From Bacteroidaceae bacterium (GTDB lineage Bacteria; Bacteroidota; Bacteroidia; Bacteroidales; Bacteroidaceae), in contig JAKSLM010000001.1 of assembly GCA_024401225.1 (NCBI GenBank), forward strand, positions 93,251-157,250: a stretch of 64,000 nucleotides of DNA, read 5' to 3'. Below, in pieces: positions 3,052 through 63,729 of this stretch. Each line of letters opens with the position of its first letter. Within the stretch, counting starts at the first letter, position 1. The position numbers were made by a program, and so were the translations under genes. Below the pieces are notes generated by a model that was given only the letters and a program-made list of their open reading frames with translations, was not told the DNA's origin and made no database searches.

Positions 3052-3318
3052 CTACTCGCAAATACCTACGTTTATCCACTCCTTGAGGAGCGATTCTGCA
3101 TCCTGTCTTGCTGTTGCTTCGTCGACCTCATAGTTGTCAGTAAGTACCTTTACCGCATCATCCAATGTGAATGTCTTACCGCTCATGGCATTCCAAATAT
3201 CCAACGCACTTTCATTGAGCGTAATGACCTTGGTAAAGTTGATGTTCTCCTTACCATGAGCTATGATGATGTTCTCACCGCAAATGGTGCGAACTTCAAA
3301 TCCTTTCTTTATTTCCAT
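3052..3318 (-). CDS. PqqD-like peptide-binding protein
   Basis: An 88-aa protein with the PqqD fold pattern: a beta-rich N-terminus (residues about 8-35), [12 protein letters not shown], then a helical segment ending in a hydrophobic strand. PqqD domains bind the leader peptide of ribosomally made peptides and hand it to a modifying enzyme. Here it overlaps the preceding S26-like peptidase gene by 10 bases and follows an HprK-like kinase gene. No radical SAM enzyme, no asparagine-synthetase-like cyclase and no precursor peptide were found nearby, so the substrate is unknown. Family assignment is by pattern only. Confidence 0.75.
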
Positions 3319-25826: not shown

Positions 25827-26927
25827 ATGATTCTTCAGAAACTTACCATACTCAATTATCGCAACATAGCCGAAGCGGATATGCTTCTCTCGCCCAATGT
25901 AAACTGCTTTGTAGGTTCGAACGGCGAGGGCAAGACGAATGTGCTCGATGCCATATTCTTCCTGTCGTTCACTAAGAGCACAGCCAACAACATCGACTCG
26001 CTCAACATACGCCATGGAGAGGACCTGATGATGGTACAGGGCATATACGACCTTGAAGGAATGCAGGAAGAGATTTCAATTGGACTGAAGAACCATCAGA
26101 AGAAATCCGTGAAGCGAAACAAGAAGCCATACAAGAAGATGTCGGAACACATCGGCTTGCTGCCTCTCATACTCGTATCGCCAGGCGACTCGGAACTGAT
26201 AGCAAGCGGAAGCGACGAACGCCGCCGCTTTATGGACCTCGTCATCTCGCAGTTCAACCCCGACTACATGGCATCGCTCTCTGCCTACAACAAGGCTCTG
26301 CAACAGCGAAATGCAATGCTGAAGACAGAAGAAGAACCGAACCTTGACATCATGGCTGCCTACGAGGAGATGATGGCTATGTACGGCGAACGCGTATATG
26401 CAGAGCGCCAGCGATTCATAGAGGAGTTCATTCCCGTGTTCCAGCAATTGTATAGCGAGATTTCGGGCGGCAACGAGCAAGTCAGCCTGCGCTACATAAG
26501 CCACTGCCAGCGAGGGCCGCTGCTCGATGTCATACAGCGCGACCGCTACAAGGACCGCGCCATAGGCTACTCATTGCATGGCATTCACAAGGACGACCTG
26601 GAAATGCTGCTGAGCGGTTTCCCAATAAAGCGAGAAGGTTCGCAAGGACAGAACAAGACTTATCTCATTGCTCTGAAGCTTGCACAGTTCGATTTTCTGA
26701 AGAAGACTGGTTCACGCACTACACCTCTTTTATTATTAGACGACATTTTCGACAAGCTCGATGCCAAGCGTGTGGGCAACATCGTCAATCTGGTGTCGAG
26801 CGACAGGTTCGGCCAGATCTTCATCACCGATACAAACAGGGAGAACCTCGATAAGATCCTTGAGAAGTCGAATGGCGACTACCGCATATTCCAAGTCAAC
26901 GGCGGAGTGATAACCTACAACCCATAA
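25827..26927 (+). CDS. recF: DNA replication/repair protein RecF
   Basis: An SMC-like ATPase that loads RecA at single-strand gaps with RecO and RecR. The N-terminus MILQKLTILNYRNI is the family's canonical opening, so the start is secure. Walker A is GSNGEGKT (30-37). The signature region QGQNKTYLIALKLAQ and Walker B LLLDDIFDKLD are intact. Length is 366 aa. It is followed after 30 bases by a DciA-like gene. Confidence 0.95.
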   Translation: MILQKLTILNYRNIAEADMLLSPNVNCFVGSNGEGKTNVLDAIFFLSFTKSTANNIDSLNIRHGEDLMMVQGIYDLEGMQEEISIGLKNHQKKSVKRNKKPYKKMSEHIGLLPLILVSPGDSELIASGSDERRRFMDLVISQFNPDYMASLSAYNKALQQRNAMLKTEEEPNLDIMAAYEEMMAMYGERVYAERQRFIEEFIPVFQQLYSEISGGNEQVSLRYISHCQRGPLLDVIQRDRYKDRAIGYSLHGIHKDDLEMLLSGFPIKREGSQGQNKTYLIALKLAQFDFLKKTGSRTTPLLLLDDIFDKLDAKRVGNIVNLVSSDRFGQIFITDTNRENLDKILEKSNGDYRIFQVNGGVITYNP

Positions 26928-26957
26928 CCCCTACCCTATAACAAACATCCATCACCA

Positions 26958-27248
26958 GTGAGAAAATGTGAAGCATCGCCTATCGGCAACCTGATTCGTG
27001 AGGCACTCCGCAACGAAGGATTGGAGACTCCCCTCAACCAGTACCGTCTCATTCATTCATGGGAGGAAGTGATGGGTATGGGTATAGCCCGATACACAGG
27101 CAACATGTACATCCGCAATCAGACTCTTTACATTCAGATCACGTCGCCAGCCTTGCGGAATGAACTTTCGATGAACCGAAAATCAATCACACAGCGCCTC
27201 AATGCAAAAATAGAAGCAAACGTCATCACAGACATTCACTTCTATTAG
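26958..27248 (+). CDS. DUF721 / DciA-like protein
   Basis: A 96-aa protein starting at GTG. It carries the DUF721 pattern: a helix, then YRLIHSWEEVMG, then a KH-like beta segment with LYIQITSPALRNELSMNR. DciA proteins load or support the replicative helicase where DnaC is absent. The position directly behind recF fits a replication role. This short form is common in Bacteroidetes. It ends 17 bases before the 22-base-period array that forms its terminator. Confidence 0.85.
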   Translation: MRKCEASPIGNLIREALRNEGLETPLNQYRLIHSWEEVMGMGIARYTGNMYIRNQTLYIQITSPALRNELSMNRKSITQRLNAKIEANVITDIHFY

Positions 27249-27265
27249 TTACATATCGAAAAACG

Positions 27266-27341
27266 CCTTGCAAGGACATCGCAAACTCCTTGCAATGTGT
27301 AAGGCAACTCCTTGCAAGGAATCGGTCGAATCCTTGCAAGG
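27266..27341. repeat. 22-base-period palindrome array, family 1, locus A
   Basis: CCTTGCAAGG, a perfect 10-base palindrome, starts at 27266, 27310 and 27332, with a degenerate copy (CCTTGCAATG) at 27288. Every step is exactly 22 bases with 12-base spacers of differing sequence. The same organisation recurs at 45455-45530. Confidence 0.85.
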
Positions 27342-27349
27342 AGTTTTTT
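27306..27349 (+). terminator. Terminator built from repeat units 3 and 4 of locus A
   Basis: AACTCCTTGCAAGGA (27306-27320) pairs perfectly with TCCTTGCAAGGAGTT (27331-27345) over 15 bp with a 10-base loop, followed by a T-run. It would end recF-dciA transcription and is convergent with the histidine kinase gene. Confidence 0.8.
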
Positions 27350-27353
27350 CGCG

Positions 27354-30300
27354 TTATTTCTCCTTTCTCAATTCAGCCTTTACGAAGATGCTGATACGCG
27401 AGCCGAATCCTTCCTTACTCTCCAGTACGATACGGCATCCAAGTCCTTCGGCAAGGCGGCGTGAGATGTTAAGACCGATACCGAGTCCAGGAACAAACTC
27501 GTCATCTTTCCAGAAGAGATCAAACACCGCTTGCTGTTTCTCAAGTGGTATGCCGACGCCTGTATCCGACACCATGATCTCCACTTCGTTTGAGTTGTAA
27601 TGATAGACTGGCGAAAGAACGATTGTACCTTCGTTAGTGAACTTGATTGCATTCGATATGAAGTGATCAAGGATATACTTCAATCGAGTACGGTCCGAAT
27701 CCACATAGATGTAGTGGCGGAATGAGGTTACGATGAAGTTTACGCCATCACGCATGCGTGGCGTCCAATCCTTCTGCAGTTCATCAATCAGATCGGATAC
27801 GTTGAACTCTGAGTTGACATATTGCAGACGACCGCTCTCTATACGAGAGAACATGAGGATATCCTCAATCATGCTGGCAAGGCGAGCATTGTTTTCTGAT
27901 ATATGGTCGGCAATCTCAGCAAGTTCATCATCCGACAAGCATCCCTCTGGCAATGATGCTACGACATCAGAGAATCCTACTACGGCATTGAGCGGAGTAC
28001 GGATCTCATGACTGATGGTTGTGAGGAAGTTCTCCTTCTGCTGCGCTTCCTCCGCAAGGCGAAGAGCAGTCTGGAGGTCTTGCTCGTACTGCTTGTTTTC
28101 ATCTATATTGATGATGAGACCATCGAAATGCTTGCGTCCGCCTGTAAAGAGGACTACGAAGCGAAGCTGCCACCAATGGTATATTCCATCACCATCCACA
28201 TCGGCATAGAGTTCGAATCCGTGCGAGCCTTCGTTGGCCAATGCTGCCTTGATGGCAAGTACGTCCTCATTTTTATTAGGATGTACGCGCGCGAGGATGC
28301 CTTTGAGTTCTTCCTCCGAACGGAGCGAACGGCTATCGGCACCACGCACAGCCAGCGAACGGTTTTCCGCATTCTGTTTTACTTGAGCAAGCAAATCCTC
28401 CTCTCCTCGTTCACGAAGCCATAGGATAAGTCCACCCCAGATGACAAACACAAGGACATAGAAGAGTACGAGCAATATACGATGTATCCACCACTGGAAT
28501 GGCTTTGCATATCGTTCAGGAGCATTTACAATATGGAAGCGACCTGCATAGTCATGATACTTCAGGCCAAGGCGCTCCATAGCATGATAATCCATATAGT
28601 AAGCTTTCTCGTGCTGACGACCATTAAGTTCTGCAGTCGGTGTATTATGAAGCTTACGGGCTCCGGCATGTGCAATATCAGTACCAACTGTACGATAGTC
28701 GGCAAAATAACCTGCAAGGAATGATGCCTTAGCATTTGCGAATCCGGCCTTAACTGCTGTAAACTGAGGACGTCCGGACGCATTTACAATGAGCGTGCTG
28801 TAGGTATCATACTTAAAGGATATCTGAGGAAACTGGTTGGAGTACATGAGTACTTTGCGGCTATTGCTCAACTTCACCTCACGAGTATCGGTCTCCAAGC
28901 CGTTGCTTGCTGGTGACGCCATGCTGAATGTGGTGACCACGACGCTGTCGTCCCACGCCGTATGAGTCTCCTCTGCATCTGGAGACCTGAACAGGTGATA
29001 GTCGGTATTGTCCACATAAGGAGGACGCGAGATGGCCTGTCGAAGTTCCTGACGGATGAGGCTGTCCTGGCTAAAGTAGTCCAGCTCAGCCTCAACGGAG
29101 GTTTTATGACCAAGCTCTACTGCAAGATCAATATTAGTGGTGTAGTCTATAGGATCATAGAATGCCACCGCATTAGGGAAATCGCGCAATCGCTCCCAAT
29201 CTGGATGGTGAAGAGCTCCAAAGATGATTGGTATGGTATCACCAGATGCGAAATAGTTGGAGAGCGGGTGGTTCATAAGCTCATTGTATGGGCGGTCGCC
29301 TTCCACAAGAACAAGGTCTGGATACCAACCAATGCGATTGAGCGAATCAGCTATAGTCTTCATGCGATCCAAGCCTGAGTCCTGGGTGGAGTTAATGCCC
29401 AGATATACATTGCAAATATCGGGAGCAATGCCGTTTGCAAACAATGTTTCGTTAATGGCATTATCGAATGCACGGTAGTGCGTGATTCCCTGATCATAAC
29501 CATGGATGACCATCACACGGCTCATCTTGCGGTTACCTCCATCGTTGATCTGGCACGACTGGAACGTACCTGCAGTAAAGGCAAAGCTGAGCACGAGAAG
29601 AAGCATCTGAACATAGCGCTTGAGATGGAAGAAGAAACGGGAACCCTTGCCCAAGGTACTTGACACACCAATGGTACCGTCCTGCTTCTCGATGATCGTC
29701 TTGGAGATGTTGAGTCCAAGACCTGTACCACAATCGGTCTCGTTCTCCTTGACATAGCGATCGAAGACGTGCTGCTGGTGTGTCTCATCTATACCAATGC
29801 CAGTATCAGCAACATATATCTCAACCACATCGTCAAGTACATGTTGCCAGCCTATGGTAACGGAACCGGCTGCTGTAAACTTGAACGAATTGCTGAGGAA
29901 ATTGTTAATCACCTGAATGGTTCGTACACGGTCTATGTTCACCTCCACATCATCAACATCCTGGAACTCCAGGAAGGAAAGGTGCTTTGGAGCAATAACC
30001 TTGTTTGTCATGTATGCTTCATGAACAAGTTCGCGAACTGAGACAGGCTTCTGTATGAGTTGGAAGTCGTCCGACTCTACCGTTGCCTTTTCTACCACGC
30101 TATCAATCATTCGGAGAATCATTTCTGTATTCTGGCGAATGATAGCTCCGTACTCTTGGCGCTCACCAGGCTCGAACGACATATCCTTATTGGTAAGCAG
30201 CATCGAGAAACCTGTAATGGCATTGAGCGGAGTACGAAGGTCGTGAGAGATGTTTGCAAGGAAGTTCTCCTTGAGCGAAACCTCACTGGCACGATGCTGT

Positions 30301-31913
30301 GCCTTGAGAAGAGTCTGCTCTATCTCCTGCATCTCATCTACATTGAGAAGGATGCCATGGATCTCATCGCGCATAGCGGTCTCATCGGTAGCGAAGTATG
30401 TGAGCTCTGCCCATATCCAGTTGCGGCCTTGGCTGGCAGTCATCTTGATGCGGAAACGCTGGCGTCCGCGATACTTCTTGAAGTCGCGCAGGATGTAGTA
30501 GCTCGACATGGTGTCTGGATGCACCATGGATTTCAATTGTTCGAATGTAATTACATTAGTCGGCATATTGTAGGCTTGCGCAAACTGAGCACTCACCTGA
30601 ATGTTGCCATGGGATATGGTCCAAAGTGTGTTGTGAGGATCGGTAAAGAGAAGGTTATGCATCTTCTCCTCATAAAGGAGATCGTTGATGACACCCTGAG
30701 TTCCTGTAAGGTTCCATCGGCGCAGCAGGATGATGATACCCCAAGAAACGAGCGCACCAATGAGCACTATGGACAACAGAATCAGCGAACGCTCCCAAGG
30801 ATGCGAGATGGAAGAAGGGACATTGGCTATGTCAAAGCGCTTACGCAGCTCCTCACATCGATCAGCGATTCCCATTCTCACCATTGCTTTATAATCGAGG
30901 TTGTAAGTTGGAGCATGGCGCACTATGCCAAGCTGATCAGGACGCGCTCCACGCAGGATGCGAGCAGCATACGCCACTTGATCGTTGATCTGAGTCTCGA
31001 GTGTGGTGAAGAAGCCGCCAAGGAAGAGCGGGTTGTCAGAACCCATATTATATTGTTCGCGGATGCATGTGAATTGTGGTTCTCGTGCAGAATTGATGAG
31101 CGAGTTGGCATAGGAGTCAAACTTCACCTGAAGATGAGTGACCTGAGTGGTCGTATGCATAATCTTCGAAAGCACCTGCTCCGCCTCTTCCTCGGTCTCG
31201 CCAGGCAAGGCATTGAGCATCGGATCGGCAACGGACGCAAAGTTGATGATACGGCGGCGTGGGTAATGCCTCTGAAGATAGTCGGCTTCAAGATTGCGCA
31301 GAGCACCCGTATTGATATAGAAACGTGATGAGTCCGCAAGCTGACTGAAGAGGCTGATGCGGAGTGAGTCCTGATAGCCATTGGAGTCGAGCTGGATAGT
31401 AATCGAAGTCTTATCGTCAAACTCATTGCAAATGTCGATGTTGCGGACAAGGTCGATGGCATCTTCGTATCCTGTGATGCGAGGATAGTTTGCCATGGAA
31501 TCAATATAAACCACATTTACACCGGCGAAAACAATAGGAAGCGAAGTGAATACCGAATCATAAAGAAAACGGTTAAGTGTCATGTAATAGGCAGGATCGT
31601 CGTTGCAAAGCACAACCTCAGGCTTTGCCGAAGCTATGGAGTCGGTCAATGAAGCTTTGAATGCTTCAAAGTTGTGACGATAGTCCTCGTGAGGAGCTTT
31701 AAGATAGAAATGATGGATGCGAGCATTTATGCCTTCCTTGGTAAATGCTTCTGTCATCAGTTCATTAAATACATCCTCTCGTTCCACTATGCTATCCCAC
31801 GAATGGATGACAAGTACCGAGCGCTCCACCCCAGAGGATTGTCGGGTGCCACAGGAGTGGATGACTATCATCAGGAGCATCAGTAATATTAGGTATAGCG
31901 GTCGGCGTCTCAT
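27354..31913 (-). CDS. Tandem double sensor histidine kinase
   Basis: A 1519-aa protein holding two complete sensor kinases in one frame. Half 1: lipoprotein-like signal (Cys21), periplasmic sensor to about residue 370, a membrane helix, a PAS-like region, HisKA with His557 in SHDLRTPLN, and HATPase with GTGLGLNISK. At about residue 770 a second signal-like helix starts (MLLLVLSFAFTAGTF, Cys787), followed by a second periplasmic sensor, a membrane helix, HisKA with His1302 in SHEIRTPLN and HATPase with GLGIGLNISR. The two sensors resemble each other, so this looks like a tandem duplication fused by loss of a stop codon. No receiver domain and no regulator gene nearby. Confidence 0.9.
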   Translation of the reverse strand: MRRRPLYLILLMLLMIVIHSCGTRQSSGVERSVLVIHSWDSIVEREDVFNELMTEAFTKEGINARIHHFYLKAPHEDYRHNFEAFKASLTDSIASAKPEVVLCNDDPAYYMTLNRFLYDSVFTSLPIVFAGVNVVYIDSMANYPRITGYEDAIDLVRNIDICNEFDDKTSITIQLDSNGYQDSLRISLFSQLADSSRFYINTGALRNLEADYLQRHYPRRRIINFASVADPMLNALPGETEEEAEQVLSKIMHTTTQVTHLQVKFDSYANSLINSAREPQFTCIREQYNMGSDNPLFLGGFFTTLETQINDQVAYAARILRGARPDQLGIVRHAPTYNLDYKAMVRMGIADRCEELRKRFDIANVPSSISHPWERSLILLSIVLIGALVSWGIIILLRRWNLTGTQGVINDLLYEEKMHNLLFTDPHNTLWTISHGNIQVSAQFAQAYNMPTNVITFEQLKSMVHPDTMSSYYILRDFKKYRGRQRFRIKMTASQGRNWIWAELTYFATDETAMRDEIHGILLNVDEMQEIEQTLLKAQHRASEVSLKENFLANISHDLRTPLNAITGFSMLLTNKDMSFEPGERQEYGAIIRQNTEMILRMIDSVVEKATVESDDFQLIQKPVSVRELVHEAYMTNKVIAPKHLSFLEFQDVDDVEVNIDRVRTIQVINNFLSNSFKFTAAGSVTIGWQHVLDDVVEIYVADTGIGIDETHQQHVFDRYVKENETDCGTGLGLNISKTIIEKQDGTIGVSSTLGKGSRFFFHLKRYVQMLLLVLSFAFTAGTFQSCQINDGGNRKMSRVMVIHGYDQGITHYRAFDNAINETLFANGIAPDICNVYLGINSTQDSGLDRMKTIADSLNRIGWYPDLVLVEGDRPYNELMNHPLSNYFASGDTIPIIFGALHHPDWERLRDFPNAVAFYDPIDYTTNIDLAVELGHKTSVEAELDYFSQDSLIRQELRQAISRPPYVDNTDYHLFRSPDAEETHTAWDDSVVVTTFSMASPASNGLETDTREVKLSNSRKVLMYSNQFPQISFKYDTYSTLIVNASGRPQFTAVKAGFANAKASFLAGYFADYRTVGTDIAHAGARKLHNTPTAELNGRQHEKAYYMDYHAMERLGLKYHDYAGRFHIVNAPERYAKPFQWWIHRILLVLFYVLVFVIWGGLILWLRERGEEDLLAQVKQNAENRSLAVRGADSRSLRSEEELKGILARVHPNKNEDVLAIKAALANEGSHGFELYADVDGDGIYHWWQLRFVVLFTGGRKHFDGLIINIDENKQYEQDLQTALRLAEEAQQKENFLTTISHEIRTPLNAVVGFSDVVASLPEGCLSDDELAEIADHISENNARLASMIEDILMFSRIESGRLQYVNSEFNVSDLIDELQKDWTPRMRDGVNFIVTSFRHYIYVDSDRTRLKYILDHFISNAIKFTNEGTIVLSPVYHYNSNEVEIMVSDTGVGIPLEKQQAVFDLFWKDDEFVPGLGIGLNISRRLAEGLGCRIVLESKEGFGSRISIFVKAELRKEK

Positions 31914-45454: not shown

Positions 45455-45530
45455 CCTTGCAAGGACATTGCTTACTCCTTGCAAGGATTCGACCAACTCC
45501 TTGCAAGGACTTTGCTATTTCCTTGCAAGG
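45455..45530. repeat. 22-base-period palindrome array, family 1, locus B
   Basis: Four perfect CCTTGCAAGG palindromes start at 45455, 45477, 45499 and 45521, each step exactly 22 bases, with 12-base spacers. It begins 27 bases after the stop of the acidic-tailed protein gene, like locus A after its upstream gene. Confidence 0.9.
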
Positions 45531-45537
45531 AGTTTTT
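45495..45537 (+). terminator. Terminator built from repeat units 3 and 4 of locus B
   Basis: AACTCCTTGCAAGGA (45495-45509) pairs with TCCTTGCAAGGAGTT (45520-45534) over 15 bp with a 10-base loop, followed by TTT. The stem is identical to that of locus A while the loop differs. Confidence 0.8.

Positions 45538-61945: not shown

Positions 61946-63729
<1,784 letters not shown>

Follow-up and report, generated by a model that had tools for sequence, protein, structure and literature searches.

An array of four short palindromes repeated at an exact period of 22 bases between two converging genes raises the question of whether such a structure serves as a transcription terminator, as a row of protein-binding sites on the DNA or as one copy of a spreading repeat. 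The array (hereafter array A) was found in a window of 64,000 nucleotides, the whole stretch of DNA analysed here, from a Bacteroidaceae bacterium. It occupies 76 of the 105 bp separating the stop of dciA (27246-27248) from the 3' end of a histidine kinase gene (27354). The unit positions, the 22-base steps and the single mismatch of the second unit given in a preliminary description of this DNA were confirmed in the sequence (Table 1), as was the perfect 15-bp stem of units 3 and 4 (AACTCCTTGCAAGGA / TCCTTGCAAGGAGTT) with its 10-base loop and T-run, which also appears in the predicted fold of the + strand. The design was said to recur 18 kb away with other spacers, and array B, whose spacers differ from those of array A, bears this out; it is located 27 nt downstream of a stop and 172 nt upstream of the next co-directional gene. 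When one mismatch is allowed, 12 matches to CCTTGCAAGG occur in the window against 1.82 expected, and none of 100 shuffles reached 12.

Table 1. Positions of the palindrome arrays, the associated hairpins and the genes flanking array A, numbered from the first letter of the window.
Feature	Positions	Strand	Remarks
dciA (PF05258)	26958..27248	+	stop 17 nt ahead of array A
Array A, opposite-strand reading	27259..27341	-	from the converging histidine kinase gene; ends CGTTTTT
Array A, unit 1, CCTTGCAAGG	27266..27275	none	read in sequence
Array A, unit 2, CCTTGCAATG	27288..27297	none	one mismatch; read in sequence
Array A, unit 3, CCTTGCAAGG	27310..27319	none	read in sequence
Array A, unit 4, CCTTGCAAGG	27332..27341	none	read in sequence
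Array A, terminator-like hairpin	27306..27349	+	units 3 and 4, 15-bp stem, 10-base loop, T-run; downstream of recF-dciA
Histidine kinase gene	27354..31913	-	3' end 12 nt past array A
Array B	45455..45530	none	four exact units, at 45455, 45477, 45499 and 45521
Array B, terminator-like hairpin	45495..45537	+	units 3 and 4, then T-run
Third array, ATATACTATC three times	63304..63357	none	22-base step; second family

The two arrays belong to a large family. Across the 3.0-Mb assembly of 105 contigs, listed as 84% complete, CCTTGCAAGG-N12-CCTTGCAAGG is present as 121 exact adjacent pairs, with none for the reversed-pattern control, and as 208 pairs when up to three mismatches are allowed (reversed control 1). 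The exact pairs fall in 59 arrays of 2-6 units each, which upholds the earlier suggestion of a repeat family rather than a single terminator and excludes the outcome that only two copies exist. The 58 stretches analysed (338 kb) together contain all 121 exact pairs, and in them the distances of up to 70 bp between exact units are 22 (121 cases), 44 (68), 66 (29) and 28 (1). The fixed 22-base period claimed for array A is thus a property of the family and does not vary freely, the only exact pair in the genome with a gap of 13-33 bases being the 28-base one, which has a T-run after it; gaps of 0-11 bases were covered in the 58 stretches. Counting degenerate units, a 23-base step is found in one array (L101) and a 33-base step in another (L135). 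Exact units make up 185 of 222, and 221 of the units have full flanks. The 12-base spacers are highly varied (140 distinct among 162) and the core and the step are not, so that core and spacing are conserved and spacers are not. Only the spacer ends are near-constant, position 1 being A in 153 and position 12 T in 154 of the 162, and the core can therefore be described as the 12-bp palindrome TCCTTGCAAGGA. The excess of G+T over A+C climbs from the first to the last spacer in 34 arrays, falls in 14 and is equal in four. At three loci (L095:5563, L117:2978 and L136:3045) the array is followed by a sequence of about 550 bp that is 88-90% identical, indicating that a larger duplicated segment travels with it there.

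The arrays are largely intergenic and associated with the 3' ends of genes. With genes called by a simple longest-ORF rule, 56 of the 59 arrays lie outside ORFs of at least 150 amino acids and three lie within one. Of the 72 gene 3' ends scored, 30 lie within 100 nt of an array, and of the 38 gene 5' ends scored only 4 do so (Fisher p 0.0009). The gaps holding arrays are convergent in 21 cases, divergent in five and co-directional in 25, while the control gaps of the same stretches, those of a stretch with two arrays (L095) being entered twice, number 10, 18 and 31, respectively; the convergent to divergent ratio of 21:5 at arrays thus differs from the 10:18 at control gaps (p 0.001).

A stable hairpin with a U-run after a gene, the feature of an intrinsic terminator, is present in both window arrays. 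Array A, between convergent genes, carries T-runs of at least five on both strands, and array B, between co-directional genes, carries one only on the side needed by the upstream gene, the longest T-run of the opposite strand being three. The predicted folds of both arrays lie far below shuffles on either strand (z -6.8 to -8.9); neighbouring units pair in those of the + strand and a nested arrangement is predicted for the - strand, where the minimum-energy fold of array A joins unit 4 with unit 1 and unit 3 with unit 2. A terminator scan of 26900-27700 (loop limit 8, stem loop 10) left the array A stem unreported, its single site being located within dciA on the - strand. Over the family, a T-run of at least four within 12 nt past the array is found at 26 of the 72 ends lying beyond a gene 3' end, compared with a rate of 3.3% at positions drawn at random from the stretches analysed, and at 15 of the 30 ends where a gene stops within 100 nt; NNTTTTT directly follows 18 unit ends (reversed control 0). 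The remaining 46 of the 72 ends have no T-run of four, and such a run also occurs at 10 of the 38 ends backing on a gene 5' end, so that near-3' and 5'-backing ends differ with a p of 0.075 only; since the latter exceed the background, the T-rich border is partly intrinsic to the element. The 3'-end position, the convergent bias, the T-runs and the predicted folds support the terminator role proposed earlier for part of the family.

We lean towards the view that the family is a dispersed, REP/BIME-like 3'-end element, a subset of whose copies would act as bidirectional intrinsic terminators. The element would comprise 2-6 copies of TCCTTGCAAGGA on a rigid 22-bp lattice between an A-rich left and a T-rich right border, often with a degenerate unit one step outside. 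When transcription from the adjacent gene enters the array, the units would pair in the RNA, either as neighbours in hairpins of 11 to 15 bp with loops of about 10 nt or as a nested fold-back, and a U-run after the paired units would bring about intrinsic termination. Self-complementary units would allow termination in both directions of transcription, a property well fitted to genes that converge. The proposal draws on the sequence, the number of copies, the lattice, the gene context, the excess of T-runs and the predicted folds, from which we infer the termination itself. Less in keeping with it are the ends without a T-run, the three arrays within ORFs, the nested folds predicted for the - strands in place of pairing between neighbours and the absence of a clear convergent bias in congener arrays (see below). 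Constant 12-nt spacers are not required by a terminator, and as termination leaves the strict spacing unexplained, an additional constraint beyond RNA pairing, probably of a protein-DNA nature, is envisaged, most likely a DNA-binding protein contacting neighbouring units. The array would then function like a BIME, kinship with BIMEs forming no part of the proposal. BIMEs are located at gene 3' ends and bind gyrase.

The pattern of conservation gives this second constraint more prominence. The preliminary description held that any two copies can pair, which is true of the units as such; pairing itself, however, is not what has been conserved. Compared with shuffles, complementarity beyond the core is reduced inside units (z -5.4) and inside spacers (z -7.1), whereas the facing outer flanks of neighbouring units are neutral (z 0.4). 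Of the 37 units that depart from the consensus, only one has stayed perfectly palindromic. Selection for longer hairpins was rejected on the grounds that flank and spacer complementarity fall below shuffles, and a fold-back of the whole array, each spacer pairing with its mirror spacer, is unsupported (3.84 of 10 positions against 4.12 for random spacers; 61 pairs). An invariant core with uncompensated changes and a rigid step is not the pattern expected from RNA pairing by itself and lends substantial weight to a DNA-bound reader. It is accordingly conceivable, though on balance unlikely, that the arrays are primarily protein-binding sites, with a dimer on each palindrome, contacts between neighbours about two helical turns apart and termination as a secondary effect; they might form a topological barrier or a site for gyrase or a nucleoid protein at gene 3' ends. 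The conserved sequence and the rigid lattice amid highly diverged spacers speak for such sites, as do the convergent gene bias, the second unit with a 22-bp step in the same genome (see below) and the occurrence of other cores on the 22-bp lattice among the 26 of the 59 arrays listed, namely TTATAA (L088), GTATAC/TATA (L103) and GATATACTAT (L106). Against them, T-runs are superfluous for protein reading alone, the candidate reader is hypothetical, and palindromes on the lattice outside the arrays are in weak excess, in the first shells alone. The placing of protein sites on one face of the DNA, suggested earlier from the spacing, is possible. Arrays of this kind provide a testable case in which, with changes of the spacing as a probe, termination at the RNA level could be told apart from the action of a protein bound to the DNA of REP-like repeats.

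The distribution of the family is narrow. An exact CCTTGCAAGG pair is absent from all 60 relatives searched (36 congeners and 24 others of the order), and no CCTTGCAAGG occurs in the 300 nt after dciA at 27 congener loci, one of which holds 141 nt and one none; one congener (G030) carries a 21-base array after dciA. A CCTNNNNAGG version was rejected for the congeners, with eight matches in six of 44 genomes against 13 in nine for the reversed control. Among named genomes, a scan that may omit records close to the window's own genome detected the family on two contigs (L041 and L051) of a Bacteroidaceae MAG from horse faeces, and the family is so far known from the window's species and this MAG. 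The presence of recF and dciA and the named MAGs sharing the repeat suggest a gut member of the Bacteroidales. The CCTTGCAAGG pair was also seen at two loci in viral contigs of 61-63% GC.

Other units occur with similar steps. A second family with the unrelated unit TATACTATC forms 22 pairs at 22 bp in the window's genome (contigs C1, C9, C12, C16, C84, C95 and others) and none in 44 congeners (control 0). Arrays of TGACTCACA with a 24-base step are present in 11 of the 44 congeners and absent from the window's genome (reversed control 0); the GGTGTGACTCACACC-like arrays of 24-base step in these 11 include those of G014, G022, G068 and G030, several copies sitting, terminator-like, between A-rich and T-rich borders. 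When 1.0 Mb sampled from 23 congener genomes was scanned for tandem arrays, periods 22 and 23 gave 9 and 18 rows, these 27 including some that overlap at one locus, compared with three rows in all at 19 (1), 20 (1), 25 (0), 26 (0), 28 (0) and 29 (1). Periods 16 and 17 gave 1 and 6 rows, and the multiples of three, 15, 18, 21 and 24, gave 18, 6, 13 and 10; as the latter may include coding repeats and period 17 has its six rows, emphasis is placed on 22 and 23 alone. Of 37 rows at periods 22-24, five lie in ORFs and the remainder merge into 27 arrays, 13 of which hold a near-palindrome (control 14.7%). These arrays are close to gene 3' ends, a gene lying within 100 nt on 15 of the 25 3' sides as against 6 of the 27 5' sides, and show no clear convergent bias (6 of 25 against 48 of 266 control gaps). 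Gene 3' ends in this genus often bear tandem arrays, in part palindromic, that differ in sequence from species to species and keep a step of 22-24 bp. A rather speculative extension, which we consider doubtful, is that the 22-bp lattice is itself functional: a hypothetical palindrome-recognising protein would bind cooperatively at 3' ends and convergent junctions, and the word that it reads would change quickly between species, and at times within a genome, on a constant 22-24-bp architecture, much as a rapidly evolving satellite and its reader co-evolve.

The array edges bear on whether the family was spread by a transposase as a MITE or REPIN-like element, neutral or nearly so. Such an origin would agree with the dispersed copies, the absence of the family from the relatives searched, border sequence of up to about 40 nt common between loci and an inverted edge motif, TAGTAAGA/TCTTACTA, which is variable and present at some of the 116 ends. 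The left border is rich in A (336 of 701) and the right border in T (288 of 708), and a degenerate edge unit often lies one lattice step beyond the array, reading TCTTACTA at some ends. The edges, however, are variable, their information content fades 22 nt past the terminal unit, no target duplication is apparent by eye at the 116 ends, and the strong 3'-end bias is a further argument against this origin. The transposase evidence, of the Y1_Tnp type only, also points away from it: the sole RAYT-like gene found in the 84%-complete assembly (L237:2725-3795, contig C11) is flanked by, and contains, GGATAATCAA...TTGATTATCC palindromes, the bordering form being GGATAATCAAGGGGTCTGACCCTTTGATTATCC, and the internal copy, at about 3111-3143, is in frame with the gene and is translated WIIKGSDPLIIH. 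An array with a single exact CCTTGCAAGG unit is located near this gene. The CCTTGCAAGG family as the repeat of this one RAYT, which has its own palindrome, was rejected, and we regard a mobile family as improbable. Least probable of all are functionless minisatellites with a period set by the mutational process of replication slippage, since adjacent spacers are hardly alike (4.88 of 10 positions identical against 4.16 for random spacers) and the arrays are hence not recent slippage products, and neutral divergence this deep should leave many length changes where core and step are intact, even though the genus is rich in arrays of period 22-24 whose units are unrelated.

The statement of the preliminary description that no described class has this layout is too strong, REP/BIME elements and BrickBuilt being near neighbours, while the exact layout was found in none of the available portions of the papers cited below. 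REP/BIME elements are extragenic palindromes with over 100 units per genome that stand in regularly spaced clusters and are reported as sites bound by protein (PMC2817692). The CCTTGCAAGG family resembles them in being extragenic, palindromic and of high copy number and differs in its unit of 10-12 bp and one fixed 22-bp step; unlike them, its self-complementary unit is without orientation. REPs are recognised by a stem of 20-40 bp with a GTAG or CGTC tag (PMC3733652); the unit falls short of such a stem, the unit and border consensus contain neither tag, and a cognate RAYT bordered by the repeat was not found in the 84%-complete assembly. BrickBuilt of Porphyromonas gingivalis, probably of the same order as the window's organism, likewise consists of tandem, intergenic repeats at many loci, of 23 nt, with predicted terminators and/or polyadenylation sites flanking 10 of 19 instances; like an IS, the element bears terminal inverted repeats, in addition to its leader and tail, and it can be as long as about 1 kb (PMC4596501). 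Its published brick consensus is unrelated, CCTTGCAAGG and the 22-base step differ from it, and the portion of that paper available describes no constant palindromic core separated by freely varying spacers. PINSR of Prevotella intermedia, which numbers 177 intergenic copies in one strain and 184 in another and is restricted to a handful of species within a single lineage, is a 188-bp repeat without terminal inverted repeats, and a 22-bp lattice goes unmentioned in the available part of its report (PMC4755523). Kinship with REP or BrickBuilt is not claimed, as tested features of both fail, nor is kinship with PINSR, which was compared by description. Intrinsic bidirectional terminators share the hairpin and T-run after stops, on both strands between convergent genes, whereas the CCTTGCAAGG arrays are near-identical units, often four, on a fixed lattice and many lack a T-run.

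TTGCAA-centred palindromes at similar steps were observed in Bacteroidales contigs of low GC and in numerous contigs of Rhodobacterales. At 43 GC-rich Rhodobacterales loci (L016-L067), 155 of 178 TTGCAA sites form the centre of a palindrome 16 bp or longer, 38 types of arm occur among these 155, and the steps are mainly 22 (78) and 23 (21), the 22-base step being partly a product of selection, as these loci were picked by the search pattern. They share the TTGCAA centre and the main 22-bp repeat with the CCTTGCAAGG arrays and differ in their long perfect palindromes, varying arms, steps of 21-23 and unrelated phylum. Among the literature matches listed for CCTTGCAAGG, no paper concerns such arrays by its title; a single palindrome is reported from a Paracoccus plasmid origin (PMC3832669).

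A search of Rfam with window positions 24000-48000 returned nothing but a tRNA, and neither array A against plasmids nor array B against phages gave a match. The histidine kinase gene next to array A forms a single frame of 1519 amino acids with two matching stretches each for HisKA and HATPase_c, as though two receptor histidine-kinase modules stood in tandem. The Bacteroidetes -7 promoter motif is TAnnTTTG; about 30 nt ahead of 45703, downstream of array B, lies TAACTTTG, which fits this motif.
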